Shown here: positions 13,320 to 61,539 of the stretch, piece by piece
Numbering within the stretch: the stretch's first letter is position 1
Layout: each line of letters begins with the position of its first letter
Source of the DNA: Oerskovia flava
GTDB taxonomy: Bacteria > Actinomycetota > Actinomycetes > Actinomycetales > Cellulomonadaceae
Length of the DNA: 64,000 nt
Assembly (NCBI RefSeq): GCF_026163685.1
Contig: NZ_JAOXSR010000006.1
Coordinates: 1-64,000 of the forward strand
Direction: 5' to 3'
The notes under the pieces: model-generated
Told to the model about the DNA's origin: nothing
Databases searched by the model: none
Seen by the model: only the letters and a program-made list of their open reading frames with translations
Position numbers and translations under genes: made by a program

Positions 13320-15028
13320 CCGCCAGGCGTGAGGTGCACGACGTCGCCGCGCCAGCTGCGCCGCAACCACCGGTCGTGGGAGGCGACGACGACCGCACCG
13401 GGCCACGACTCGATGGCCTCGAGGAGCTCGGTCGCAAGGGTGAGCGAGAAGTGGTTGGTCGGCTCGTCGAGCAGCAGGACGTCGGGCGTCTGGGACAGGA
13501 GCATCGCCAGGACCACGCGGCGGCGCTGACCGACGGACAGGTCGGCCAGGGGTCGGCCGAGGTCCCGCGGGGCGACGAGCCCGTGCGCGTCGACGTCGCG
13601 CCCGCCGTCCGCGCCACGGTCACCCTGCACCAGCGTGAGGATCTCCCGCGGGGTGCGCGCCTCGTCACCGAGGTGAACGTCCTGCTCCAGCAGCGCCACC
13701 ACGGCCCCCCGTGCCCGTCCCACCACCCCGGCGCTCGGGCGGACGTCGCCCGCGAGCGCGTGCAGCAGCGTCGACTTGCCCGTCCCGTTCCCGCCGGTCA
13801 CCAGCAGCCGGGCGCCCCGGGCGACCGCGATCGACGGCGCCCCCGCGGCCGGCAGATCGAGCCGGACGGCCTCGCCGTCCCCGTGCACGACGACGTCCCG
13901 CGCCCACAGCACGAGCCCACCCGGGTCGTCGGGAGCCCAGCGGGCGGGCGGCGGGGCGAGGCGCATCGGTACCGGCGGGCGACGGACCTGCACGCGCTCG
14001 AGCGTCGCGAGCCGCCGCTGGGCGTCGCGCACCCGACGCGAGACCTGACCCTCGACCCGGTCCCCGCGCCGGCCGAACGCCATCTTGTTGCCGTCCCGGA
14101 TCGGTCGGTCGTGACCGACCTGGCGGGCGGTCGTCGCGACGGTGCGGCGCAGGTCGCGCAGCTCTGCCTGCTCGACGGCGAATCGCTCCTCCCAGCGTCC
14201 CCGCTCGACCCGCTTGGCCACGAGGTAGTCGCTGTAGCTCCCGCCGTACAGCATCGCGCCGCCCGGGTCGAGATCGACGATCTCGGTGCACACCTCGTCG
14301 AGGAACACCCGGTCGTGGCTGGCGAGGAGGACCGCCCCCGGCAGCGCTCGCAGCGCGGTCGCGAGGTAGTCGGCGGCATCGTCGTCGAGGTGGTTCGTCG
14401 GTTCGTCGAGGAGCAGGGCTCCCGGCTGGCGGATCAGCAGCGCCGCCAGGCCCACCCGGCTGCGCTGGCCACCCGACAGCCGCCCGAGCGGCCTGCGCTC
14501 GGAGCCCACGAGGCCGAGGCCCGCGAGGGTGCGGGCGGCGCGCGCGTCCGCGTCCCACACGTCGGCGAGCTCGGCGCGCAGGAGGGCGTGGTCGTACGTG
14601 GCGGCGCCCGGCAACGCACCGTCCGTGGTGGAGGCGCCGTGCGGCGGCTGACCAGTCCCGGCGAGCGCCACCGCCGATGCCTCGAGCTCGGCCTCGAGCC
14701 TGCGGACCCCCGCGAGGGCGTCGTCGACGACGTCGCCGACGGTCCAGGTCGACGGGTACGGCAGCTCCTGGTGCAGGTGGCCGACGTCGTCCGGGATCTC
14801 GACCGTCCCCGCGTCCGGATCCTCGAGCCCGGCGAGTAGACGCAGGAGCGTCGACTTGCCCGCCCCGTTCTCCCCGACCAGGCCGGTGCGGTGGCCGGGG
14901 TCGACGGCGAGGGTCACGTCCCGCAGGACGGCGCGACCGTCGTAGGACTTCGCCAGGTCCTGCGCGCGGAGCACCGGGGTGCGGCGCGCGGACGAGGAGT
15001 GGTGAGGGGAAGGGTGTGCAGAGGTCAT
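13286..15028 (-). CDS. ABC-F family ATPase, antibiotic-resistance-like
   Basis: This 580-residue protein has two ATPase domains and no membrane segment. Domain 1 has GENGAGKS, LSGGQRSRV and LLLDEPTNHLD. The interdomain linker (about 250-330) is long, basic and helical. Domain 2 has GGNGTGKS, LSVGQRRRV and LLLDEPTNHFS, where F-S replaces the usual L-D. ABC-F proteins bind the ribosomal E site, and many actinobacterial ones dislodge macrolides, lincosamides or pleuromutilins. The layout resembles that antibiotic-resistance group more than housekeeping EttA, but this is inference. ATG 15028 is chosen for AGGTGAG just upstream; the ORF is open to 15139. Confidence 0.85.
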   Translation of the reverse strand: MTSAHPSPHHSSSARRTPVLRAQDLAKSYDGRAVLRDVTLAVDPGHRTGLVGENGAGKSTLLRLLAGLEDPDAGTVEIPDDVGHLHQELPYPSTWTVGDVVDDALAGVRRLEAELEASAVALAGTGQPPHGASTTDGALPGAATYDHALLRAELADVWDADARAARTLAGLGLVGSERRPLGRLSGGQRSRVGLAALLIRQPGALLLDEPTNHLDDDAADYLATALRALPGAVLLASHDRVFLDEVCTEIVDLDPGGAMLYGGSYSDYLVAKRVERGRWEERFAVEQAELRDLRRTVATTARQVGHDRPIRDGNKMAFGRRGDRVEGQVSRRVRDAQRRLATLERVQVRRPPVPMRLAPPPARWAPDDPGGLVLWARDVVVHGDGEAVRLDLPAAGAPSIAVARGARLLVTGGNGTGKSTLLHALAGDVRPSAGVVGRARGAVVALLEQDVHLGDEARTPREILTLVQGDRGADGGRDVDAHGLVAPRDLGRPLADLSVGQRRRVVLAMLLSQTPDVLLLDEPTNHFSLTLATELLEAIESWPGAVVVASHDRWLRRSWRGDVVHLTPGGQGIGPSTSIQ

Positions 15029-45572: not shown

Positions 45573-45612
45573 ATGTCACCGGTGTCAAGAGATTGCATGA
45601 CACCGGTGACAT
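45573..45612. promoter_or_regulatory. twin LacI-type operator in the divergent promoter region
   Basis: ATGTCACCGGTGTCA (45573-45587) and its exact reverse complement (45598-45612) form a perfect 15-bp inverted pair with a 10-bp gap. Each half is itself TGTCA-CCGG-TGTCA with a CG centre typical of LacI operators. It lies between the P-loop kinase/MDH operon and the SDR/LacI operon, so one repressor could shut both. Confidence 0.75.
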
Positions 45613-46396: not shown

Positions 46397-46422
46397 GCCC
46401 GCCGGGAGGCCGGGGTGCGAGG

Positions 46423-47430
46423 ATGTCCCCCGTGGTGAGCATGCGGGACGTGGCTCGCGAGGCCGGTGTGTCGGTGAAGACCGTCTCGCGCGTCCACAAC
46501 GACGACCCGCACGTCTCCGCCGAGACCCGCGAGCGCGTCGAGGAGGCGATCAGCCGGCTCGGCTACCTGCCGAACACGCTCGCGACCACCTTCCGGGACG
46601 GCCGCTCCGCCGTCGTCGGCGTCGTCGTCCCCAGCATCGAGGACCCGTACTTCGCCGCGATCGTCCACCAGGTCGACCGGACCGCCGCCCTGCACGGCAT
46701 GCTGACGATCGTCGCGGGCACCGGTGCGGACCCGGTCGAGGAGCGCGAACGCGTCGAGACGCTCCTGAGCCGGCGGCTGAGCGGCCTGGTGCTGGCGCCC
46801 GTGTCCGAGGACCAGTCATACCTGACGCCGTGGGCAGGCTCCACCCCCCTGGTGCTCGTCGACCGCCAGCCGACCCGGCTCACGGCGGACTCCTTCACGA
46901 CGGACGACGCCGGCGGTGCGGCCGTGCTCACCGAGCACCTCCTCTCCCACGGCCACCGCCGGATCGCGTTCCTCGGCGACACCCCGCGGCTCTCGACCAC
47001 CGCCGACCGCCTGGCCGGCTACCTCCGCGCGCTCGCGGACGCCGGGGTGGACGCACGCCCCGACCTCGTGGCCATGGCCGACGACGACCCCGGGGGTGTG
47101 GACGGCGTGCTCGACGCCCTCACGGCGCTCGACGCCCCACCGACCGCCCTGGTCAGCTCCAACGCCCGGTGCACGCAGGCTCTCGCGCCGCGCCTCCGGA
47201 CGCTCGGGCTGGCGGTGGTCTCGTTCGGCGACTTCCCGCTGTCCGACGCCCTGGTCCCCTCCGTCACGGTCCTCGACCAGCAGCCCCGCCTCGTCGGCGA
47301 GCTCGCCGCCGCGCGGGTGATCGACCGGCACGCGCACCCCGGCCGACGGTTCCGGCGTCGGACGACGGTGCCGGCCGTCCTCGTCGAGCGCGACTCGTGC
47401 CGGGGCGAGGCCCCCGGCACGAGTCGCTGA
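46423..47430 (+). CDS. LacI-family regulator (of the MDH/SDR set)
   Basis: About 335 residues: HTH SMRDVAREAGVSVKTVSRVHNDDPHVS, hinge ISRLGYLPNTLATTF, then a periplasmic-binding-protein-like domain. The usual ALV/LAR hinge contact is ATTF here. The start is uncertain among ATG 46423, GTG 46432 and ATG 46441. It follows the SDR by 26 bp and likely represses through the twin operator at 45573. It may instead respond to a phosphorylated sugar. Confidence 0.85.
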   Translation: MSPVVSMRDVAREAGVSVKTVSRVHNDDPHVSAETRERVEEAISRLGYLPNTLATTFRDGRSAVVGVVVPSIEDPYFAAIVHQVDRTAALHGMLTIVAGTGADPVEERERVETLLSRRLSGLVLAPVSEDQSYLTPWAGSTPLVLVDRQPTRLTADSFTTDDAGGAAVLTEHLLSHGHRRIAFLGDTPRLSTTADRLAGYLRALADAGVDARPDLVAMADDDPGGVDGVLDALTALDAPPTALVSSNARCTQALAPRLRTLGLAVVSFGDFPLSDALVPSVTVLDQQPRLVGELAAARVIDRHAHPGRRFRRRTTVPAVLVERDSCRGEAPGTSR

Positions 47431-47451: not shown

Positions 47452-48351
47452 TCAGGCAGCGGCGACGGCGACGGCCGTGACGGCCTCGCGCAGCTCGCGG
47501 AGCCGGGGCTGCGAGAACGTCGTCAGGCGCTCCTCGCGCTCCTCCGTCGTCATCCCCAGGCTGTCCTTCCAGAGCGACCGGCCCGCCATGGCTCCCGCCG
47601 CGCCGTGCGCGACCGCCGTGCGGACCTGGCCGATGAACGTGGCGTGGTCGACGCCCGCGGACAGGACGGCCCACGGGACGCCGTCGGCGGCGGCGGTCAC
47701 CGCGGCACAGGCCTCCGGGCTGCCCGGGTAGGGCAGCTTGAGGACCTTGGCACCGCACGCGACCGACAGGGCGGCCGCGTCGGCGACCAGGGTCGGGAAG
47801 GCGGCGGCGTACTCCTCCTCGGTCTCGCCCTCGAGCCGGTAGGTGAGGATCTCCACGATGAGGAGCAGGCCCTCGTCCGCGCACGCCCGCACGAGGTCGC
47901 GGATCTCCTGGGCGACGCGCGACCCGGCGTCCTGCCGGTCGGTGCGCACGTACCAGAGCATCTTGGCGACGGCCCCGCCGAGGTCCCGGACCGTGCGGGG
48001 CGTGACGCCGTCGACGTGGCGGGTGTACCGCAGCCCGTCGACGGTCTCGAAGCCCGAGGCGTCCATCCCGACGACGAGCGCGGTGTCCCGGCCCAGGACG
48101 CCGTCGTCGACGATCTGGGGCAGCGCGACCTCCGGGTCGAGGAGGATGGCCGGTGCGTGGTTGCCGAGGTAGGTCACGAGGTCGGCCTTGGCGTCGGCGA
48201 GCTGCTCGGCGCTGATCGCCGCGGGACCGTCGGGGTTCCCCATCACGGCCTTCATGCCGTTGCGCTGGTCCGCGGCCACGATGAGCATCGCGCCGTCGGG
48301 CGTGCAGATCGTCGACAGGGCACGTCGTTCGAGGGTGGTGAGCTGGTTCAT
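47452..48351 (-). CDS. class I aldolase, tagatose-bisphosphate aldolase (LacD)-like
   Basis: A 299-residue aldolase of the LacD/YihT type: IVAADQRNGMKAVMG near the N-terminus, AILLDPEVALPQI, KMLWYVRTD (candidate Schiff-base lysine in the AKMLWY strand), LIVEILTYRLEGE and CGAKVLKLPYPG. Family members cleave tagatose-1,6-bisphosphate or sulfofructose-1-phosphate to DHAP and an aldehyde. ATG 48351 has AGGAG six bases upstream; ATG 48357 is too close. Downstream of an FGGY kinase, it probably splits the phosphorylated ketose. Confidence 0.8.
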   Translation of the reverse strand: MNQLTTLERRALSTICTPDGAMLIVAADQRNGMKAVMGNPDGPAAISAEQLADAKADLVTYLGNHAPAILLDPEVALPQIVDDGVLGRDTALVVGMDASGFETVDGLRYTRHVDGVTPRTVRDLGGAVAKMLWYVRTDRQDAGSRVAQEIRDLVRACADEGLLLIVEILTYRLEGETEEEYAAAFPTLVADAAALSVACGAKVLKLPYPGSPEACAAVTAAADGVPWAVLSAGVDHATFIGQVRTAVAHGAAGAMAGRSLWKDSLGMTTEEREERLTTFSQPRLRELREAVTAVAVAAA

Positions 48352-48373
48352 CGTCATCTCCTGGTTCGGGTGG

Positions 48374-49735
48374 TCAGTCGGTGAGCTCGGCGGCACGGGC
48401 CGCGAGCAGGTGTGCGGCGAAGCCCGCCGCGCCGTGGGCGGTGTCCTGGGTCCGGGAGGAGACCCGGACCCCAGGGAGCACCGCGGCTCGCGCCGTGCGG
48501 ACGGACTCCATGCCCGCCCATCCGCCGGTGAGAAGGGTCGACGTCGCCGGCGGGAGCTCGCGGTCCATGACCTCCACCAGGCGCCGGATCTCGTCGTTGC
48601 CGTGCTGGAGCACGGCGAGGAAGGCCTCCGCCGGGGTGACGCCGTCGGCGCGCACGGTCAGTCCGAGGACGCCGTCGTCGTTCCGCGCACCCGTCACGTC
48701 GACCGCGCCGGGTGCGAGGGCGGAACCTGCTCCGAGCCGGACGACCTGCTCGTCGAGCTCGGCGCGCCGAGCGGCGTCGTCGATCCCGAAGAGCTGGAGC
48801 GAACGGCGCATGAGGAGACCGGTCTTCACCCCGGCGACGAGGACGTGCTGCCCGGGCACGACGTGGTGCACACAGTTGACGAGCGCGCCGGCAAGCCGCC
48901 GCCGGACGTCGGCGGTCAGGGGCCCGTCGACCACGCGCAGCAGCACCTCGGCCGTGCCCATCGAGACGTGGTAGGCGTCGGCGACGAGGCCGCCGGAGAC
49001 CGCCGACACCAGGTGGTCGTGCCCGGCCACGGTGAGCGATGCGCCCTGGAACATCTCCGGGACGCGGGCTCCGGCCATCTCGCCCAGCGGGGTTCCCGCC
49101 TCGACGAGCTCGGGCAGGAAGCCCGGACCGACGCCGAGCAGGTCGAGGGCCTCGCCCCACGGCGCACCGGTGTCCTGGTCGAGGAGACCCGTGCGCGAGG
49201 TGAGGGACAGCTCGCCGACGAGCCGGCCCCCGAGGACGTGCGCGAGGTACTCGGGGAGGTTCGCCCACCGTGACCCGGCCAGCGGGACACCGCTGTCACG
49301 CAGGTACAAGAGCTTGGCGAGGGTGACCTGGACGCCCCACGGGAGTCCCGTGCGGCCGGCGAACCGCGCCCGGAACCCGTCGGGGAGCGCGGCGACCTGC
49401 GGCTCCCCGCGGGGGTCGAACCACGCGATGCCCGGGCTGAGGACGGTGCCGTCCCCGGCGATCACGAAGCCCGTCTCGCCCATCCCCGCCACCGCGACGG
49501 ACGCGACCCGCGGGGACTCCAGGCCCACGTCGTGGACGAGCGCGTCGGCCACGTCCGCGAGCAGGGCCTCGACCGTCGCCACGAGGTCGTCGGCGAGCAT
49601 GTCGGTCGTGCCCGCCGGTCCGCCGACCCACGGGGTCGGGCGCTGCCTGACCAACAGGGTCCGGCCGTCCCTGTCGGTGACGAGGATCTTGATGCCGGTG
49701 CTGCCGAGATCGAGCCCGGCGACCAGTTCGTGCAC
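48374..49735 (-). CDS. FGGY-family carbohydrate kinase
   Basis: The 453-residue kinase has GLDLGSTGIKILVTD (phosphate 1), GIAWFDPRG, TVAGHDHLVSAVSGG (usual Gly-His-Asp centre) and LLTGGWAGMESVRTARA (adenosine motif). Members phosphorylate pentuloses, hexuloses, glycerol or erythritol. AAAGGAG lies 9 bases before GTG 49735. Placed between the binding protein and the aldolase, it would phosphorylate the imported sugar; the substrate is unknown. Confidence 0.87.
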   Translation of the reverse strand: MHELVAGLDLGSTGIKILVTDRDGRTLLVRQRPTPWVGGPAGTTDMLADDLVATVEALLADVADALVHDVGLESPRVASVAVAGMGETGFVIAGDGTVLSPGIAWFDPRGEPQVAALPDGFRARFAGRTGLPWGVQVTLAKLLYLRDSGVPLAGSRWANLPEYLAHVLGGRLVGELSLTSRTGLLDQDTGAPWGEALDLLGVGPGFLPELVEAGTPLGEMAGARVPEMFQGASLTVAGHDHLVSAVSGGLVADAYHVSMGTAEVLLRVVDGPLTADVRRRLAGALVNCVHHVVPGQHVLVAGVKTGLLMRRSLQLFGIDDAARRAELDEQVVRLGAGSALAPGAVDVTGARNDDGVLGLTVRADGVTPAEAFLAVLQHGNDEIRRLVEVMDRELPPATSTLLTGGWAGMESVRTARAAVLPGVRVSSRTQDTAHGAAGFAAHLLAARAAELTD

Positions 49736-49790
49736 GAAGGTCAGCTCCTTTCAGGGGGCGCTCGTGGCGCTGCGCGGGCAGGGCCGAGCA

Positions 49791-49818
49791 CGCCGCCCTG
49801 CTCCACGGCAGGGCGGCG
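49791..49818 (-). terminator. hairpin between binding protein and FGGY kinase genes
   Basis: An 11-bp perfect stem, CGCCGCCCTGC (49791-49801) with 49808-49818, and 6-base loop lies 18 bp after the binding-protein stop, in the 100-bp gap. It probably protects or attenuates the message, raising binding-protein levels over the kinase and aldolase. Confidence 0.6.
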
Positions 49819-49835
49819 GCCGGTGCGGTCGGTCG

Positions 49836-50831
49836 TCAGCAGGTCGAGGCGTAGAGCGCTGCCTGACCCTCCTCGGTGGCGAGGTCGTCGACCGTGAGGA
49901 TCGAGAAGCCGGTCTGGATCCTGCTCTCGGTGGACTCGCCACGGATCGCGGCGACCGCCTGCTCGACGCCCTGGTAGCCGATGTCGAAGGGCTGCTGGGC
50001 GATGATCGCCTGGACGGTGCCGTCCTCCAGCGCCTCGACCTGGGCCGGGCCGGCGTCGAACCCGACGACCTGGACCTCACCCGCGACACCGGCCTGCTCG
50101 ATGCCGGTCGCGGCACCCTCGGCGCTGAACAGGTTCGTGGCGAAGACCGCCTTGAGGTCGGGGTAGCGCTGCAGGGTCGAGGTGACGATGTCCGCAGCGC
50201 GAGCCGGCTGGTTCTGCGCGTACTGGACCCCGACGTACTCGAAGTTCGGGTCGGCGGCAGCCGCCTCCTCGAACCCCTTGACCCGGTCGTCGGAGGTCGA
50301 GATACCGGGCTGGTTGTCGATGACGAGGACCTGACCGCCGTCGGGCACCAGGGCGGCGATCGCCTCGAAGGCCGCGGCACCGCCGCCGACGTTGTCGGAC
50401 GCGATCTCCGAGACGGCGATGGACGGGTCCTCGAGGGTCGTGTCGACGAGGACCACCTTGCTGTTCTCGGCCGCGTCGGCGAGGGGTCGCTGCAGGGCGC
50501 TGACGTCGTTCGGCGCGATGAGGATCGCGTCAGGCTTGGTCGCCGTGACGGACGACACGATGGGCTGCTGGAGCGCCGGGTCCCACTTCTGCGGTCCCTG
50601 GACGCTCACCTCGATCCCGCCGAGCTCCTCGGCGGCAGCGAGGACGCCGCACTCCATCGAGATGTAGAAGTTGTCGCCGATGACCCCCTGGATGAAGGCG
50701 AGGTCGATCGAGTCGGAGTCCGAGCCGGCCGGCTCGGAGACGGACGCGGCGTCGGAGTCGGAGGCGCAGGCGCCGAGCACCAGGAGCAGTGCGGTGGCGG
50801 CGGCGGGCAGGACGATCTTCTGGGGACGCAT
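49836..50831 (-). CDS. ribose-type sugar-binding lipoprotein
   Basis: The 331-residue precursor has lipobox LLLVLGAC (Cys about 22) and a peripla_BP_4 fold: AFIQGVIGDNFYISMECGVLAAAEELG, ILIAPNDVSALQRPL, VFATNLFSAEGAATGI and VVGFDAGPAQVEAL. It feeds sugars to the permease-ATPase encoded just upstream. Its start is directly after the permease stop (TAG-ATG), with AAAGGA nearby. Confidence 0.87.
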   Translation of the reverse strand: MRPQKIVLPAAATALLLVLGACASDSDAASVSEPAGSDSDSIDLAFIQGVIGDNFYISMECGVLAAAEELGGIEVSVQGPQKWDPALQQPIVSSVTATKPDAILIAPNDVSALQRPLADAAENSKVVLVDTTLEDPSIAVSEIASDNVGGGAAAFEAIAALVPDGGQVLVIDNQPGISTSDDRVKGFEEAAAADPNFEYVGVQYAQNQPARAADIVTSTLQRYPDLKAVFATNLFSAEGAATGIEQAGVAGEVQVVGFDAGPAQVEALEDGTVQAIIAQQPFDIGYQGVEQAVAAIRGESTESRIQTGFSILTVDDLATEEGQAALYASTC

Positions 50832-51917
50832 CTATGAGTCCTTTCGGTGGTGGGTGAACAAGCGGAAGAATCTGCGGGGCCTGGAACCGCCTCGGACCGC
50901 CCGGGCCCGACGGACCTGGTCGGCGTAGACGGCCAGGATGAGGAAGGCACCGACGACCACCTGCTGCCAGTACGGCTCGACACCGAGGATGACGAAGCCG
51001 TTGCGGAGCGTGGCAGGGATCAGCAGCCCGACGACGGTGCCGAAGACGGTCCCGATGCCGCCGAACAGGCTGGTGCCGCCGATGACGACGCCGGCGATGA
51101 CGTCGAGGTTCGTCAGGCTGTGCCCGGCGATGGTGGTGGAGCGGAAGAACGTGAGGTTGAGCAGGCCCGCGAGCCCGGCGAGCAGGCCGGCGAGCGCGTA
51201 CACCTTGATGAGCTGGCGCTCGACGTTGATCCCGACGCGGCGGCATCCCTCGGCGTTGGAGCCGACCGCCGAGGTGTGCAGGCCGAAGCGGGTGCGGCGC
51301 AGGAGCACGATGCCGAAGACGACGACGCACGCGGCGACGATCACGAGCCCAGGGACGCCGAAGACGTCTCCGAACCCGATGGTGTCCACCAGCACGTCCG
51401 GCACCGCACGACGGTCGATGCCACCGGTGAGGACCTGAGCCAGACCGAGCGCGGCACCGAAGGTACCGAGCGTCACGATCATCGGCGGGACCTTCGCCTT
51501 GGCGACGAAGAAGCCGTTGAGCAGGCCCCAGCACAGACCGGAGAGCAGGGCGACCCCGATACCGACCACGGCCGACGACCAGCCCTGGCCGTCCCCGACG
51601 AGACCCATTGACATCGATGACACAACACCGCTGAAAACGAGGACCGAGCCCATCGAGAGGTCGATCCCGCCGGTGACGATGATGAAGGTGGTCCCGACGC
51701 CCAGCACCGCGAGGATGGAGACGCTGATCGCGATGTTGCGGAAGTTGTTGGAGTCGAAGAACGCCTCGGGGCTCAGGACGCTGAAGAGCACGACGATCCC
51801 GAGCCAGACCAGGACGATCTGCATGGCCTGGGCCTTGAGCCCTGACGCGAGCCGTGCGGTGAAGGGCACCTGGTTCGCGGTCGACGCGGGCGCCGGCCTG
51901 ACGGATGTCTGGACCAT
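50832..51917 (-). CDS. ribose-type ABC importer permease
   Basis: The 361-residue BPD_transp_2 permease (ATG 51917) has about ten helices, with IVTGGIDLSMGSVLVFSGVV as the family signature and IAGVVIGGTSLFGGIGTVFGT near the end. The ATG overlaps the ATPase stop by one base. Codons at 51603-51634 use GTT, TCA and GGT, out of step with the GC-ending codons around them; they spell an operator-like sequence. Confidence 0.87.
   Translation of the reverse strand: MVQTSVRPAPASTANQVPFTARLASGLKAQAMQIVLVWLGIVVLFSVLSPEAFFDSNNFRNIAISVSILAVLGVGTTFIIVTGGIDLSMGSVLVFSGVVSSMSMGLVGDGQGWSSAVVGIGVALLSGLCWGLLNGFFVAKAKVPPMIVTLGTFGAALGLAQVLTGGIDRRAVPDVLVDTIGFGDVFGVPGLVIVAACVVVFGIVLLRRTRFGLHTSAVGSNAEGCRRVGINVERQLIKVYALAGLLAGLAGLLNLTFFRSTTIAGHSLTNLDVIAGVVIGGTSLFGGIGTVFGTVVGLLIPATLRNGFVILGVEPYWQQVVVGAFLILAVYADQVRRARAVRGGSRPRRFFRLFTHHRKDS
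51609..51622 (-). promoter_or_regulatory. intragenic LacI-type operator candidate
   Basis: Inside the permease gene the minus strand reads TGTCATCGATGTCA, matching the TGTCA-TCGN-TGTCA elements before the LacI gene at 53806. It encodes Ser-Ser-Met-Ser with two TCA codons that are rare here, suggesting that the DNA sequence itself is kept. It could serve in looping or roadblock repression. Confidence 0.5.
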
Positions 51918-52684
51918 CACGCGGCCTCCTTGCCGTCGAGGGCACCGGTCATGGCGCCCACAAGTTCTTCGACGCTGCTCTGCGCCGCCTCGTACACCGC
52001 GACCCGGCGACCCTGCCGCATGACGTGGACGCGGTCGGACACCTCCAGCACGTGCGGCATCGAGTGACTGATGAGGACGACGGCGATGCCGCGGTCCCGG
52101 ATGCGCCGGATGAGGTCGAGGACACCGCGCGTCTGCACGACACCCAGGGCAGCCGTGGGCTCGTCGAGGAAGATCACGTTCTGCGCCCACGCCGCGGCGC
52201 GAGCGACGGCGATCGCCTGACGCTGGCCACCCGACATGCCGCCGACCGGCCCGGTGTAGTTGCGCACCGTCGCCCCGAGGTCCTCGAAGGCCTGCCGTCC
52301 GTCGGCGCGCATGGCAGACCGCTCCATAAAGCCGAGCTTGCCGAGGATGCCCGGCTTCATGCGCTCGCGGCCCAGGTACATGTTCTGGATCGGGTCGAGA
52401 TGGTTGGCGAGCGCGAGGTCCTGGAAGACCGTCTCGACCCCCCGACGTCGTGCGTCCGTCGGGCTGCTGAGCACGGTCGCCTCGCCGTCGAAGCGCAGCT
52501 CACCGGAGTCCGGTTGCTCCACCCCGGCGAGGATCCGGACGAGCGTCGACTTGCCCGCACCGTTGTCGCCGATGATCGAGCAGACCTCACCGGGACGGAC
52601 GTCGAAGCTGGCACCCTGCAACGCCTGCACCGAGCCGTAGCTGCGGACGATGTCGCGTGCCTCGTAGACAGGCTGCGTGTTCAT
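51917..52684 (-). CDS. ribose/fructose-type ABC importer ATPase, single domain
   Basis: The 255-residue ATPase has one nucleotide-binding domain: GDNGAGKST, FQDLALANHLDPIQNMYLG, MSGGQRQAIAVARA, IFLDEPTAALG and LISHS. RbsA/MglA proteins carry two such domains; the single-domain form is like FrcA of fructose importers, and must act as a homodimer. ATG 52684 is used; the upstream extension to 52732 lacks family resemblance. Confidence 0.86.
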   Translation of the reverse strand: MNTQPVYEARDIVRSYGSVQALQGASFDVRPGEVCSIIGDNGAGKSTLVRILAGVEQPDSGELRFDGEATVLSSPTDARRRGVETVFQDLALANHLDPIQNMYLGRERMKPGILGKLGFMERSAMRADGRQAFEDLGATVRNYTGPVGGMSGGQRQAIAVARAAAWAQNVIFLDEPTAALGVVQTRGVLDLIRRIRDRGIAVVLISHSMPHVLEVSDRVHVMRQGRRVAVYEAAQSSVEELVGAMTGALDGKEAA

Positions 52685-52798
52685 GCGAGCACCGTCCCTC
52701 GTCGGGCGCGGGGTCCGGTCGGACCACGCCACCGTGCTGCGGGAGTCATGCTTCCTCCTAGGTTTCTCGTCGTCGAGTCCATCAGGTCGTGCGCGGGG

Positions 52799-53806
52799 TC
52801 AGGGGCGTAGCTCGCCCGAACCTCGGGGGATGAGCCGGGCGGGGACCGTCACGATGGGGTCGTCGAGCGTGCGGGTCGGGTCGGCGAGGCTCGCCAGCAT
52901 CGCCTCGGCCGCGGCCGCCCCGACCGCCGTCGGCGAGTGGTCGATCACGGTGATCGCCGGCGACAGGCTCTCGGCCATGTCGAAGTCGCCGATGGCGACC
53001 ACGGCGAGCCCCGTCCGGCCGTACTGCCGGACGGCCGGGACGACCCCGAGGGAGAGCCGCGTGTTCGTCGAGATCACCGCGGTCGGCGGCTCGTCGAGGT
53101 CCATGAGCTCGGTGATGGCCCGCACCACGTCGGACCGGTCGTCGCAGTTCCCCCGGACCAGGCGCTCGTCGACCTCGAGGCCCGCGGCGAGCATCGCCGC
53201 CCGGTAGCCCTCGTGCCGGCGTCGCGTGGTCTCGACGACCGGGGCGTCGCTGACGAGCGCGATCCGGCGGTGGCCGTGCTCGATGAGGTGCTCCGTCGCG
53301 GTGCGGCCGAACCCGAAGTCGTCGGAGACGACCGACTGGGCGCCGGGGAGGTCCCCGATGCGGTCGACGAAGACGACCGGTGCGTCGCGCAGCGGGACAC
53401 CGTCCAGCGAGCTGCGGGAGATCGGCGCCACGATGACGCCGGCGCACCGTCGCTGGACCAGGCTCTGGACGAGGTCGCGCTCACGCTGCTCGTCCCGGTT
53501 GCTGGAGGCGATGAGGACGCGGTACCCGGCGGCGTCGAGCATCGACTCGATCCGCGCGACGAGCTGGGAGAAGAACACGTCCCCGACGCTGTCGATGACG
53601 ACACCGACCAGCCGGTCCTTGCCGGCTCGCAGCGAGCGCGCTGCCGGGTCCGGCTGGTAGTCGAGCGAGCGCATGGCCTGGGCGACGGCGGCTCGGGTGG
53701 ACGCGGCCACCGCCGGGTCGTCGTTGAGGACGCGTGACGCCGTCTTGATGCTCACCTTCGCCATCTCGGCGACGTCCTTGAGCGTCGCGCCTCGGGTCTG
53801 GGCCAT
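52799..53806 (-). CDS. LacI-family regulator (of the importer/FGGY/aldolase set)
   Basis: A 335-residue regulator with HTH TLKDVAEMAKVSIKTASRVLNDDPAVA, hinge DYQPDPAARSLRAGKD and a ligand domain of about 270 residues. AAGGA lies 7 bases before ATG 53806. It is the first gene of the six-gene minus-strand series, followed after 114 bp by the ATPase. It likely binds the TGTCA-type sites just upstream and inside the permease gene. Confidence 0.87.
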   Translation of the reverse strand: MAQTRGATLKDVAEMAKVSIKTASRVLNDDPAVAASTRAAVAQAMRSLDYQPDPAARSLRAGKDRLVGVVIDSVGDVFFSQLVARIESMLDAAGYRVLIASSNRDEQRERDLVQSLVQRRCAGVIVAPISRSSLDGVPLRDAPVVFVDRIGDLPGAQSVVSDDFGFGRTATEHLIEHGHRRIALVSDAPVVETTRRRHEGYRAAMLAAGLEVDERLVRGNCDDRSDVVRAITELMDLDEPPTAVISTNTRLSLGVVPAVRQYGRTGLAVVAIGDFDMAESLSPAITVIDHSPTAVGAAAAEAMLASLADPTRTLDDPIVTVPARLIPRGSGELRP

Positions 53807-53821
53807 GTCACGTCCTTCGGA

Positions 53822-53880
53822 TGTCATCGTTGTCATCGCTGTCTGGGCACCACCATGGGGCATCGATGACAAGGATGTCA
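53822..53880. promoter_or_regulatory. cluster of LacI-type operators upstream of the regulator
   Basis: TGTCATCGTTGTCA (53822-53835) and TGTCATCGCTGTCT (53831-53844) overlap in tandem. The minus strand reads TGTCATCGATGCCC at 53871-53858, and TGACAaggaTGTCA lies at 53867-53880. The common core is TGTCA-TCGN-TGTC. The density suggests cooperative or autoregulatory control. Confidence 0.6.
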
Positions 53881-54006
53881 ACGCCGCGGACCAAAGTCGT
53901 CCGATTCGTGCGGGATCGTGCAGGATCGCTAGGACGTGTGGCCTCACTGCGGGGGTCGGCGCCTCGAACTGCTCTCGCCACGGAGCTCAGCGAGCCGGAA
54001 GCCGGA

Positions 54007-55029
54007 TCACTCCGAGGGTGGTGGCCCGACAGGTGCCGTGAGGGTCTGGGCGACGGCGACGGCCAGCTCCCGGTGGGAGTGGGCCATGGCGGTCAGGCGG
54101 GTCCTGAGCTCAGCCCTCCATGCGGGGTCGTCGTGGTTGGGTGTGCTGAGGGCGTGAGTGATGCGGACCAGCGAGCAGGCGGCGTGCGCGCCGGCGAACA
54201 GTCGCAGGTTCGTCAGGTCGGCGTCATCGAGCGGCCGTACGCTGCGGTACCCGGCGACGAACGCCTGGACGAGTCCTCGGCGTGCCGCGTCCGGCTCACC
54301 GTCGGGTCCGGTCAGGTCTCGTAGCGCGTAGGCGATGTCGGCGGCATACCAGGACACGGCGGCCTCGTCGAAGTCGAAGGCGGTCGCTCGGTCAGCGTCC
54401 CAGGCCAGGTTGTCGAGCTCGAAATCGCCGTGGACCACACCGAATCGGGCACGGTCACGCGGCAGGACGGCGAGCCTGTCGGACAGGCGCGCAGCGGCCT
54501 TCACCAGGAGGGGATCGTCGGCGAACCATCGGGGTACTCCGGTCAGTTCGGCGAAGGCGACGGGTAGACCGGTCTCGAGCCCGGCAGCGGCGTCGTGCAT
54601 CGAAGCGAGCGTGCGACCCCAGGCCCGGGCCCGATCCTCGGTCAGGTCGTCGACGTCGAGCTCGTCGCCGGGAGCAGCGTCGACCATCATGGCGTGCATC
54701 GGTCCCAGCGTCGTCGGCACCGTCACGATCAAGGTGCCGGTCTGAGCCGGGACCGGGCGGACCACAGCCGCGCCGCCTGCGGCGAGCCGGTCCATCAGCG
54801 TGCTCACGGCCGCCATCGGGCCGGCGCCCCGAGAGGAGTCGGGCACGAACCGCAGGTATCGCTTCCCGCTCGGGTCGGGCAGGACGAACACGTGCGAGGC
54901 GCTCGAGCGCCACCACTTCGCCGTTCCAGGCGAGCACCCCCATGCGGCAGCCACCTGGTCGGCGACCGGGCTCTCCCACGCGGCGGTCACGGTTCGTCTC
55001 AGACGATCGATCTCCAGCAGTGGCATCAT
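54007..55029 (-). CDS. aminoglycoside/homoserine-kinase-type phosphotransferase
   Basis: The 340-residue kinase has RYLRFVPD (ATP lysine replaced by Arg in the RFV strand), VVHGDFELDNLAWD (catalytic HGD-x4-N) and TAFDFDEAAVSWYAADIAYALRDL (metal Asp). All catalytic residues of the HGD loop are intact. Substrate unknown; such stand-alone members rarely confer drug resistance. No operon partner is obvious. Confidence 0.8.
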   Translation of the reverse strand: MMPLLEIDRLRRTVTAAWESPVADQVAAAWGCSPGTAKWWRSSASHVFVLPDPSGKRYLRFVPDSSRGAGPMAAVSTLMDRLAAGGAAVVRPVPAQTGTLIVTVPTTLGPMHAMMVDAAPGDELDVDDLTEDRARAWGRTLASMHDAAAGLETGLPVAFAELTGVPRWFADDPLLVKAAARLSDRLAVLPRDRARFGVVHGDFELDNLAWDADRATAFDFDEAAVSWYAADIAYALRDLTGPDGEPDAARRGLVQAFVAGYRSVRPLDDADLTNLRLFAGAHAACSLVRITHALSTPNHDDPAWRAELRTRLTAMAHSHRELAVAVAQTLTAPVGPPPSE

Positions 55030-59228: not shown

Positions 59229-59306
59229 TACCTGATACTCGCTATCCCTGGATCGGCCCGGGTTGCTAGCGTCGACGGTGATGTACCTAGTACTCCAGGT
59301 ATCACC
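59229..59306. promoter_or_regulatory. repeated TACCT-N2-TACTC elements before the heptad-repeat gene
   Basis: TACCTGATACTC (59229-59240) and TACCTAGTACTCC (59284-59296) are near-identical and about 55 bp apart. The second sits in an imperfect inverted repeat, GGTGATgtACCT with AGGTATCACC (59278-59289 and 59297-59306). The region is AT-rich for this genome and looks like a regulator binding zone; the regulator is unknown. Confidence 0.4.
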
Positions 59307-59406
59307 AACATCGGTGTGCCCGGAGTCGGCCCACGGGAGCAACGACGCCCCGGGCCCGTGCCATCCTGCCGCCCGCAACGACGCGAGGCGCGAGAGAGGA
59401 CGACCC

Positions 59407-61539
59407 ATGACGCAGCACGCCTCGCCACGCCCATCCCGCACGCACACCGTCCTGACCACCGTCGCGCTCGTCGCACTCACCCTCGCGGTCGTCGGGCTCG
59501 TCGCCTTCCTGCTGGTCTTCCACGGCAGGGTGGCCGACGGCGCCGCTCGCCTCGACGACGGCGCGGGCCGGTTGGACACCGGTGCCGTCGAGCTCGCCGC
59601 CGGTGCGGACCGGGCACAGGAAGGGGCGGGCACGCTCGCCGACGGCGCGGACGACCTCTCGTCCGGTGCCGCCGAGCTGGCCGCCGGTGCCGAGCGCGCG
59701 TCCGACGGTGCCGCGAGGCTGGCCGAGGGCAGCACGACCGCGCTCGACGGCGCGACCGAGCTCGCTGACGGCGCGGGCACGCTGAACGCCGGGGCGAGCC
59801 GCCTCGCACCGGGTGCCGCCGACGCTGCCGCAGGCGCGGGCCGGCTCGCGGCCGGGACGGGCGAGCTGGACGACGGGGCGGCGCGCCTCGCCACCGGGAC
59901 TCATGACCTCGACGACGGGGCGGCGCGCCTGGCGAGCGGGAGCGCGCGGGCGGCCGACGGAGCGGGCAAGATCGCCGACGGCGCCGGGACGCTGCGTGAC
60001 GGCGCCCAGTCCTTGCGCGACGGTGTCACCACTGCCGCGGGCGGCGCGGGGCGGGTCGCCGCCGGGGCGGACGGTCTCGCGGCAGGGTCCGCGTCGCTCG
60101 CCGGCGGGGCCGAGGCCGCGGCGGCCGGGGCGTCCAGCGTCGCGACCGGGTCCGAGGGCTTGCGGCAGGGAGCCGCGCGGCTCGCCGCGGGCGCCGAGGA
60201 CGCCGCGACCGGCGCCGGTTCGCTCGCCGCGGGCACCACGCAGCTCCAGGCCGCAGGCGGAGAGCTGTCCGCAGGGACGCGGTCCGTCGCGGGGGGCACC
60301 GCGCAGCTCCACGAGGCGTCCGGGCGGCTCGCCGCCGGGGTCGCCCAGGCGCGCGACGGTGCGCAGGGGTTGCACGAGGGCGCCCGCACGCTCGCCGGCG
60401 GCACGGCGCAGGTGCGGGCGGGCTCGGCACAGCTCGCCGCCCAGCTCGCAGGCCTCGCCGGGTCCGTCGATGACCCGGAGCTCGCGGGGCAGCTCCAGGC
60501 GCTCGCACAGGCCGCGGGCCACGTGTCGGCCGGCGCCGCGTCCGCCGACGACGGCGCGGCGGGCGTCGTGGCCGGCGCCGACCGGCTCGCGGCCGGTCTC
60601 GCCGGGGCCGAGGGCGCTGCCGCCGGAGCGGCGGCGATCCGGGACGGCCTGGGAGACCTGGCGGTCGGCGCGGGTGCGGCCGCGGACGGCGCGGCGCGCC
60701 TCCGCGCGGGCGTCACGACCCTCGCCGGCGGGGCGACGGAGCTGGCCTCCGGCACGTCGGACCTGGCCGCAGGGGCGCGGGCGCTCAGCGCGGGCGCCGG
60801 TGACCTGTCCGCGGGGGCCGGCGCTCTCGCCGCCGGGACGCAGGAGGTCGCGGACGGCGCCACCCGCGTCGCCGACGGCAGCTCCGCCCTGCGCACGGGC
60901 GCCGAGAGCCTCGCGGACGGCACCCTGCTGCTCGCCGACGGCGCGGAGCTGGTCGCCGGGGGCAGCGGCACGCTCGCCGACCGGACGGCCGAGCTCGCGG
61001 ACGGCACCCTCGACCTCGCCGACGGCGCCACCGACCTGGCCGCCGGTGCGACCCGCGCCGCGACCGGTGCGGCCGACCTGTCCGCCGGGACCTCTCGTGC
61101 GGCCACCGGGGCGCGCGACCTCGCCGACGGCGGGGTGCGCCTGGCCGCCGGCGCCCGTGACCTCGCCGACGGCACGGTCCGGCTGGCGGACGGGACGGTG
61201 TCGCTGCGGGACGGCCTCGACACCCTGAGCGCGGGCACCGCGGATCTCGCCGAGGGCACCGCGACCCTCGCCGACGGCAGCGCGCGGCTGCACGACGGCT
61301 CCCGCACCCTCGCGGAGGGAAGCGCCGCGCTGCACGACGGCGCGGGCACGCTCGCCGACGGAGCCTCCACCCTCGCGGGGGGCACCACCGAGCTGTCCGC
61401 CGGGACGACGACCCTGCGGACCGACGTCGCGGACAGCCCCGTGGGGCGCCTGTCGGTCGGGGCGTCGGCCGTCGTGGGCGGGAGCGTCCTGGCCGGCGCG
61501 GCCGGCATCGGCCTCGGGCTGCGTCGCCGCCTGGCCTGA
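59407..61539 (+). CDS. giant heptad-repeat (xxxLxxG) membrane-anchored protein
   Basis: The 710-residue protein has an N-terminal helix (VALVALTLAVVGLVAFLLVF), then about 620 residues built from seven-residue units of the L-A-D-G-A-x-x kind, roughly 85-90 copies, and a C-terminal helix followed by RRR (SAVVGGSVLAGAAGIGLGLRRRLA). The repeat is of the YhgE/Pip xxxLxxG type. YhgE/Pip proteins carry such repeats between an N-terminal helix and a multi-helix ABC2-like domain; that domain is absent here. One short non-repeat stretch (SVDDPELAGQLQALAQAAGH) breaks the array near residue 355. The rod should lie outside the membrane. ATG 59407 is preceded by GAGAGAGGA. Confidence 0.75.
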   Translation: MTQHASPRPSRTHTVLTTVALVALTLAVVGLVAFLLVFHGRVADGAARLDDGAGRLDTGAVELAAGADRAQEGAGTLADGADDLSSGAAELAAGAERASDGAARLAEGSTTALDGATELADGAGTLNAGASRLAPGAADAAAGAGRLAAGTGELDDGAARLATGTHDLDDGAARLASGSARAADGAGKIADGAGTLRDGAQSLRDGVTTAAGGAGRVAAGADGLAAGSASLAGGAEAAAAGASSVATGSEGLRQGAARLAAGAEDAATGAGSLAAGTTQLQAAGGELSAGTRSVAGGTAQLHEASGRLAAGVAQARDGAQGLHEGARTLAGGTAQVRAGSAQLAAQLAGLAGSVDDPELAGQLQALAQAAGHVSAGAASADDGAAGVVAGADRLAAGLAGAEGAAAGAAAIRDGLGDLAVGAGAAADGAARLRAGVTTLAGGATELASGTSDLAAGARALSAGAGDLSAGAGALAAGTQEVADGATRVADGSSALRTGAESLADGTLLLADGAELVAGGSGTLADRTAELADGTLDLADGATDLAAGATRAATGAADLSAGTSRAATGARDLADGGVRLAAGARDLADGTVRLADGTVSLRDGLDTLSAGTADLAEGTATLADGSARLHDGSRTLAEGSAALHDGAGTLADGASTLAGGTTELSAGTTTLRTDVADSPVGRLSVGASAVVGGSVLAGAAGIGLGLRRRLA

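Follow-up and report, generated by a model that had tools for sequence, protein, structure and literature searches.

A predicted LacI-family operator within the permease gene of a sugar ABC-transporter operon of Oerskovia flava

The window analysed here, i.e., the whole 64-kb stretch of DNA, contains a sugar operon whose genes run in the order lacI, ATPase, permease, binding protein, FGGY kinase and aldolase. The site that concerns us lies inside the third of them, the permease gene, and is additional to the sites found in front of the operon. The genes and the inferred promoter region are as follows:

53867-53880, minus strand: promoter-distal operator TGACATCCTTGTCA, overlapping the inferred -35 TTGACA (53876-53881)
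53852-53857, minus strand: inferred -10 CATGGT, 18 bp after the -35, read by eye from the promoter sequences
53822-53835, minus strand: promoter-proximal operator TGACAACGATGACA, beyond the inferred -10
52799-53806, minus strand: LacI-family repressor P0002, first gene of the operon
51917-52684, minus strand: sugar ABC-transporter ATP-binding protein
50832-51917, minus strand: sugar ABC-transporter permease (PF02653), carrying the site
49836-50831, minus strand: sugar-binding protein (PF13407), downstream of the in-gene site
48374-49735, minus strand: FGGY-family sugar kinase, downstream of the in-gene site
47452-48396, minus strand: DeoC/LacD-family aldolase, downstream of the in-gene site

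Membership of P0002 in the LacI family was judged by the presence of the LacI helix-turn-helix domain together with a periplasmic-binding-protein-like core, and both were found (PF00356 at 60.9 bits, cut-off 27; PF13377 at 88.3 bits, cut-off 26.5). As a reference we used 11 orthologous loci retrieved by searches with P0002 and the permease (L031 and L032, both from Ornithinimicrobium, L083, L089-L093 and L102-L104). All of them carry the same set of lacI, ATPase, permease and sugar-binding protein (SBP) genes plus kinase and aldolase, with an additional SDR gene separating SBP from kinase in L089, and with split matches in lacI, permease and kinase in L032, where frameshifts are possible. Four more distant loci (L105-L108) were kept apart from these 11, their operon order being different and their P0002 matches all having at most 43% identity, and 1,383 plasmid records of permease relatives, all below 60% identity, were left out. 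A permease search at E <= 1e-120 across 396 genomes of the phylum returned the own genome only.

In each of the 11 orthologous loci the region before lacI carries TGACA[A/T]CGATGACA. The earlier proposal of operators within 53822-53880, about 2.2 kb from the in-gene site, is borne out by the orthologues for 53822-53835 and 53867-53880, with centre-to-centre distances to the in-gene site of 2,213 and 2,258 bp. The -10 of the orthologues is mostly CATAGT or CATGAT (CAGGAT in L083, GATAGT in L104); a sigma-70 promoter scan missed the inferred promoter of the operon itself.

Within the permease gene we distinguish the following features:

51609-51622, plus strand: in-gene operator TGACATCGATGACA (minus strand TGTCATCGATGTCA), CG-centred, its palindrome broken at positions 3/12
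51603-51638, minus strand: twelve codons, GTT TTC AGC GGT GTT GTG TCA TCG ATG TCA ATG GGT, six of them ending in A or T
51632-51645, plus strand: possible degenerate second operator TGAAAACGAGGACC, matching at 11 of 14 positions (5.6 bits), speculative

The minus-strand sequence that the sequence-only reading had placed inside the permease coding sequence is there without mismatch (TGTCATCGATGTCA at 51609-51622), and the permease frame across it reads GTG TCA TCG ATG TCA. A LacI-family operator is an even palindrome with a central CG pair (PMC4052901), and this is what the in-gene site shows, TGACAT-CG-ATGACA with a single mismatched pair. To score it we built a weight matrix from 27 promoter operators of the 11 other loci, with the window excluded from training and three near-duplicate locus pairs at half weight. 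Scored by this matrix, whose training set includes sites that possibly serve a second repressor too, the in-gene site is the best in the whole window (26.4 bits), above the promoter operators at 53822 (25.6 bits) and 53867 (23.3 bits). Below these come the two operators of a second LacI (20.9 bits each) and two partial promoter sites (13.2 and 12.7 bits), and the rest of the window holds no further matrix site above 12.3 bits. The 14-mer TGACATCGATGACA is, letter for letter, the promoter operator standing before lacI in L089, L102 and L104, so that it is other genomes, rather than the window, that identify the motif.

The motif is also rare in its own genome. An exact match to the pattern TGACAWCGATGWCA is found at only two positions of the 4.11-Mb genome, 51609 and 53822, both in this operon; allowing one mismatch adds 53867, a site before another LacI gene (contig C5) and one on contig C21, and the reversed-pattern control gave one match. 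With the differently written pattern TGTCATCGATGWCA and one mismatch allowed, a site on contig C12 is added. The 11-mer CATCGATGACA likewise occurs at only two genome places, the promoter region (53861-53871) and the in-gene site. The suggestion that the in-gene sequence is an operator is therefore upheld by a motif derived from other genomes only, as a consensus operator for the LacI-family protein that the operon itself encodes, and the site is probably occupied by that repressor. Similar operators are found at the second LacI gene of the window (46408-47430) and at the LacI gene on contig C5, so cross-binding is possible; other repressors of this genome may share the site, and P0002 is perhaps not its sole binder.

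The codons around the site are unusual for a genome in which about 95% of codons end in G or C. The six A/T-ending codons are those listed by the sequence-only reading, except that the first GTT (51636-51638) falls just beyond the 51603-51634 it had quoted. GTT accounts for 0.5% of Val codons, TCA for 2.4% of Ser and GGT for 12% of Gly. Among 7,368 twelve-codon stretches in 22 hand-chosen genes, 51603-51638 is the sole one with six A/T-ending codons, and the operator thus lies inside the densest such cluster of the chosen genes. This uniqueness depends on the choice of genes, because a wider set of 38 ORFs, some with doubtful frames or unchecked starts, gives 14,433 stretches, of which 18, at four places, reach at least six (the other places being 20024, 36086 and 36638), and the permease place ranks fourth of the four by codon rarity. 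The 16 of the 38 ORFs left out of the codon statistics were in part doubtful in frame or start and in part simply unchecked. The idea that the operator sits there at the cost of rare codons holds for the two TCA codons, the only ones of the six that the operator demands. It does not hold for GTT, GGT and GTT before the site or GGT after it, which fall outside the 14 bp and are left unexplained by a 14-bp operator, although the five codons preceding the core are the most extreme of 7,236 such stretches.

The chance expectation was obtained by synonymous resampling, with the proteins fixed, codons drawn from local usage and 15 exact operator spellings searched on both strands. The expected number of operators in the permease was 7.7e-5, against 0 for the remaining 21 genes, both for this 14-mer and for any of the 15 exact spellings to which the figure applies; as the site was chosen for its odd look, this rarity is partly a selection effect. 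The permease place is the sole spot in the 22 genes that fits any of the 15 spellings without an amino-acid change. In 20,000 simulated operons, a site of at least 23 bits arose in 1 and a site of at least 20 bits in 1.1%, mostly in the binding-protein gene. The codon choice, which had been proposed to reflect selection on the DNA site, is hard to account for if that site is disregarded, given the resampling value and the single simulated operon reaching 23 bits.

For the A/T-rich flank, one possible explanation is that it may be the beginning of an adjacent second operator, 23 bp off. The candidate TGAAAACGAGGACC starts 23 bp from the start of the in-gene site, adjacent operators at the orthologous loci are mostly 22-25 bp apart, and one otherwise unexplained GTT slightly improves the match. 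We regard it as a lead only, since the protein sequence supplies much of the match anyway, the homologous stretch matching at 7-10 of 14 positions in the 11 orthologues.

The comparison with these orthologues changes the picture with regard to the age of the site. At the homologous permease position it is absent in 11 of 11, where the scores range from -21.6 to 10.8 bits vs. 26.4 here, and the four more distant permeases (L105-L108) have none within two mismatches of four operator spellings. The same 14 codons contain 0-2 A/T-ending codons in the 11 orthologues vs. six here, and at the second TCA the present permease alone has Ser, the others having Val, Ala or Thr. Part of the site is already given by the orthologous protein sequence V-S-S-M, and the best orthologous near-site, TGTCGTCGATGACG in L104, has two mismatches at the same place. 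From the start of lacI to the end of the aldolase gene, 10 of the 11 orthologous operons have no site of at least 20 bits. The exception is L089 (genome G270), with 25.1 bits at 13914-13927, at the 5' end of the inserted SDR gene and not in the permease (inside the gene or immediately ahead of it, according to which start codon is used). The sequence-only reading had described the operator as kept and had named conservation in orthologous permeases as a check, with absence from orthologues that retain the upstream operators as a refuting outcome. With regard to conservation this is the outcome observed, and that part fails, as the homologous position is empty in every orthologue although all of them retain the promoter operator. 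With such a distribution purifying selection over time is invisible, and the in-gene site looks like a lineage-specific gain, with 11 loci compared, none of the same genus. In L083 (9181), L090 (reversed, 10228) and L091 (10156), all of one genus, we also observed GTCAACGATGACA (17.0 bits) overlapping the start codon of the ATPase gene, which may be a different in-operon operator or a by-product of the start ATGACA.

The explanation that we favor, with a probability of roughly 0.55, is that this is a bound, high-affinity and selected in-gene operator of the autoregulated LacI-family repressor encoded at 52799-53806, gained in this lineage and acting mainly as a roadblock. In the absence of inducer, repressor dimers would sit on the promoter operators, one over the -35 and one beyond the -10, and the in-gene site would be occupied independently of them. 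RNA polymerase leaking through would run into the bound dimer some 2.2 kb further downstream, where it would be stopped or released, as with PurR in purB. Repression would thereby be tightened for the distal part of the operon (the rest of the permease, the binding protein, the kinase and the aldolase), while some basal expression of repressor and ATPase would remain. The in-gene site may amount to an additional, recently acquired brake on the operon, comparable to the in-gene sites of E. coli lacZ and purB. A more elaborate version, in which a second-stage brake was recently built by rewriting permease codons and one amino acid at the sole permitting position among the examined genes, leaving repressor and ATPase at basal level and blocking the binding protein and catabolic genes, appears rather doubtful to us. 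The sequence evidence covers the operator identity, the promoter architecture as compared with the orthologues, the codon improbability, the lineage specificity among the loci compared and the missing C-terminal extension of the repressor described below; from it we infer binding, roadblocking and selection for roadblocking.

DNA looping to the promoter sites, also raised by the sequence-only reading, does not fare well in its LacI-type form. The C-terminal extension of LacI carries its tetramerisation helix. Among solved structures, P0002 is closest to RbsR, CcpA and PurR and ends where their cores end (CcpA was matched to residue 328 of its 332). Against LacI the alignment spans residues 7-304 of P0002 and 4-305 of LacI, leaving 31 residues in P0002 and 55 in the 360-residue LacI, a length comparison by which P0002 is without the extension. 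LacI-style looping is thus unlikely, since P0002 stops, as CcpA and PurR do, with the dimer core, and a PurR/purB-style roadblock fits better. An auxiliary operator resembling lac O2 could still loop to the promoter 2.2 kb away through a higher-order assembly or a DNA-bending protein. There are strong operators at both ends, and looping is reported to make weak roadblocks more effective, one example being a 3.8-kb loop with lambda CI (PMC10310618). Against this, the homology of P0002 to LacI, CcpA and PurR is that of the dimer core, and 10 of the 11 orthologous operons have no comparable site, the L089 exception lying outside the permease, so that we consider looping of this kind improbable. 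PMC10310618 also names LacI, PurR, GalR and CcpA as roadblocks to RNA polymerase, and LacI-family roadblocking depends on affinity, with more polymerase flux giving more readthrough (PMC10310618, PMC4132739). The leaky transcription of a repressed operon would therefore favor a roadblock.

A site that the repressor binds but that was never selected, drifting into existence where V-S-S-M-x-M nearly spells the operator and acting at most as a decoy, is an alternative that we find less convincing but take seriously. Its empty counterparts in the orthologues and the L104 near-site, which indicates that the protein predisposes to it, agree with this, as do simulations concluding that in-gene binding sites often arise in this manner (PMC6397444). 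However, drift would have had to supply two rare TCA codons in the face of a strong third-position G/C bias, one of them also changing the amino acid, with a probability of about 8e-5 under local codon usage, and to do so within the repressor's own operon, where both exact matches of the genome lie.

Explanations in which the operator match is a coincidence, the codons reflecting a translation pause, an RNA structure or a foreign patch, are very unlikely. Four of the six A/T-ending codons do lie outside the operator, and the extreme run of five just before it would suit such an effect, which alone would not yield an exact operator. An RNA structure was rejected because the fold is ordinary, no stronger than that of shuffled sequences (z 0.32). 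A conserved rare-codon pause was discarded with the 0-2 A/T-ending codons of the 11 orthologues, and a mobile or duplicated patch because the rest of the genome matches it only in short, partial stretches. An antisense promoter seems hardly credible. The plus strand has a perfect -35 hexamer (TTGACA, 51608-51613) overlapping the operator just as at the inferred native promoter, with the A/T-rich patch where a -10 would sit. However, the best -10 candidates, TGAAAA at 18 bp and GAAAAC at 19 bp, match at 3 of 6 positions each and have no final T (TGAAAA also has no A at position 2), and this reading of the patch was rejected for want of an acceptable -10 beside TTGACA. The sigma-70 scan of 49500-54100 found no promoter there either, a result of little weight as the native promoter was missed too.

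In-gene operators have precedents. The lac repressor is a looping tetramer whose O2 lies at a distance of about 0.4 kb, and CcpA binding sites occur in Bacillus coding regions. Fewer than 1% of LacI-family sites are given as lying in coding regions, with lacZ (operator O2) and purB named (PMC4052901), and the PurR operator inside E. coli purB is a transcriptional roadblock (He and Zalkin 1992, cited in PMC4052901, PMC10310618). Like PurR in purB, the present case would combine a dimeric-type LacI-family repressor with an operator in coding sequence downstream of the promoter. It differs in that the site lies about 2.2 kb into the operon, in the third gene, and is additional to promoter operators, that the operon is a sugar operon with the repressor as first gene, and that roadblocking is here only a proposal. 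With lac O2 it shares an in-gene operator of the operon's own repressor alongside promoter operators, unlike it in the 2.2-kb distance and in a repressor without the C-terminal extension. Of the solved relatives, CcpA is one of the closest to P0002, and its operator is also a CG-centred even palindrome, but CcpA is a global regulator and P0002 looks local and autoregulated. The present site is thus a further predicted case of a known kind; what is new is the codon-level evidence and a comparative set without the site. With about 95% of codons ending in G or C, the cost of an in-gene site can be read from the codons, which makes selection on DNA measurable, and the 11 site-free orthologous operons offer a natural comparison for the effect of an in-gene operator on operon polarity.

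Some additional observations concern the surroundings. The second LacI-family gene (46408-47430) adjoins the operon, and two ACCGGT-centred operators, 24 bp apart (45574-45587 and 45598-45611), have a divergent SDR gene on one side and a kinase gene on the other. Related operators, paired or single, also appear in the orthologous loci, so that the region seems to be shared by two paralogous repressors whose half-sites are nearly identical. Elsewhere in the genome, TGACAGCGATGTCA at 47348-47361 of contig C5 lies about 50 bp before the LacI-family gene of that contig (46301-47299), which would be a third repressor with a very similar operator, making cross-regulation possible. Finally, 59263-61539 of the window is an ORF of 758 residues that consists for the most part of short repeats rich in Gly, Ala and Asp (such as LADGA and LAAGA).
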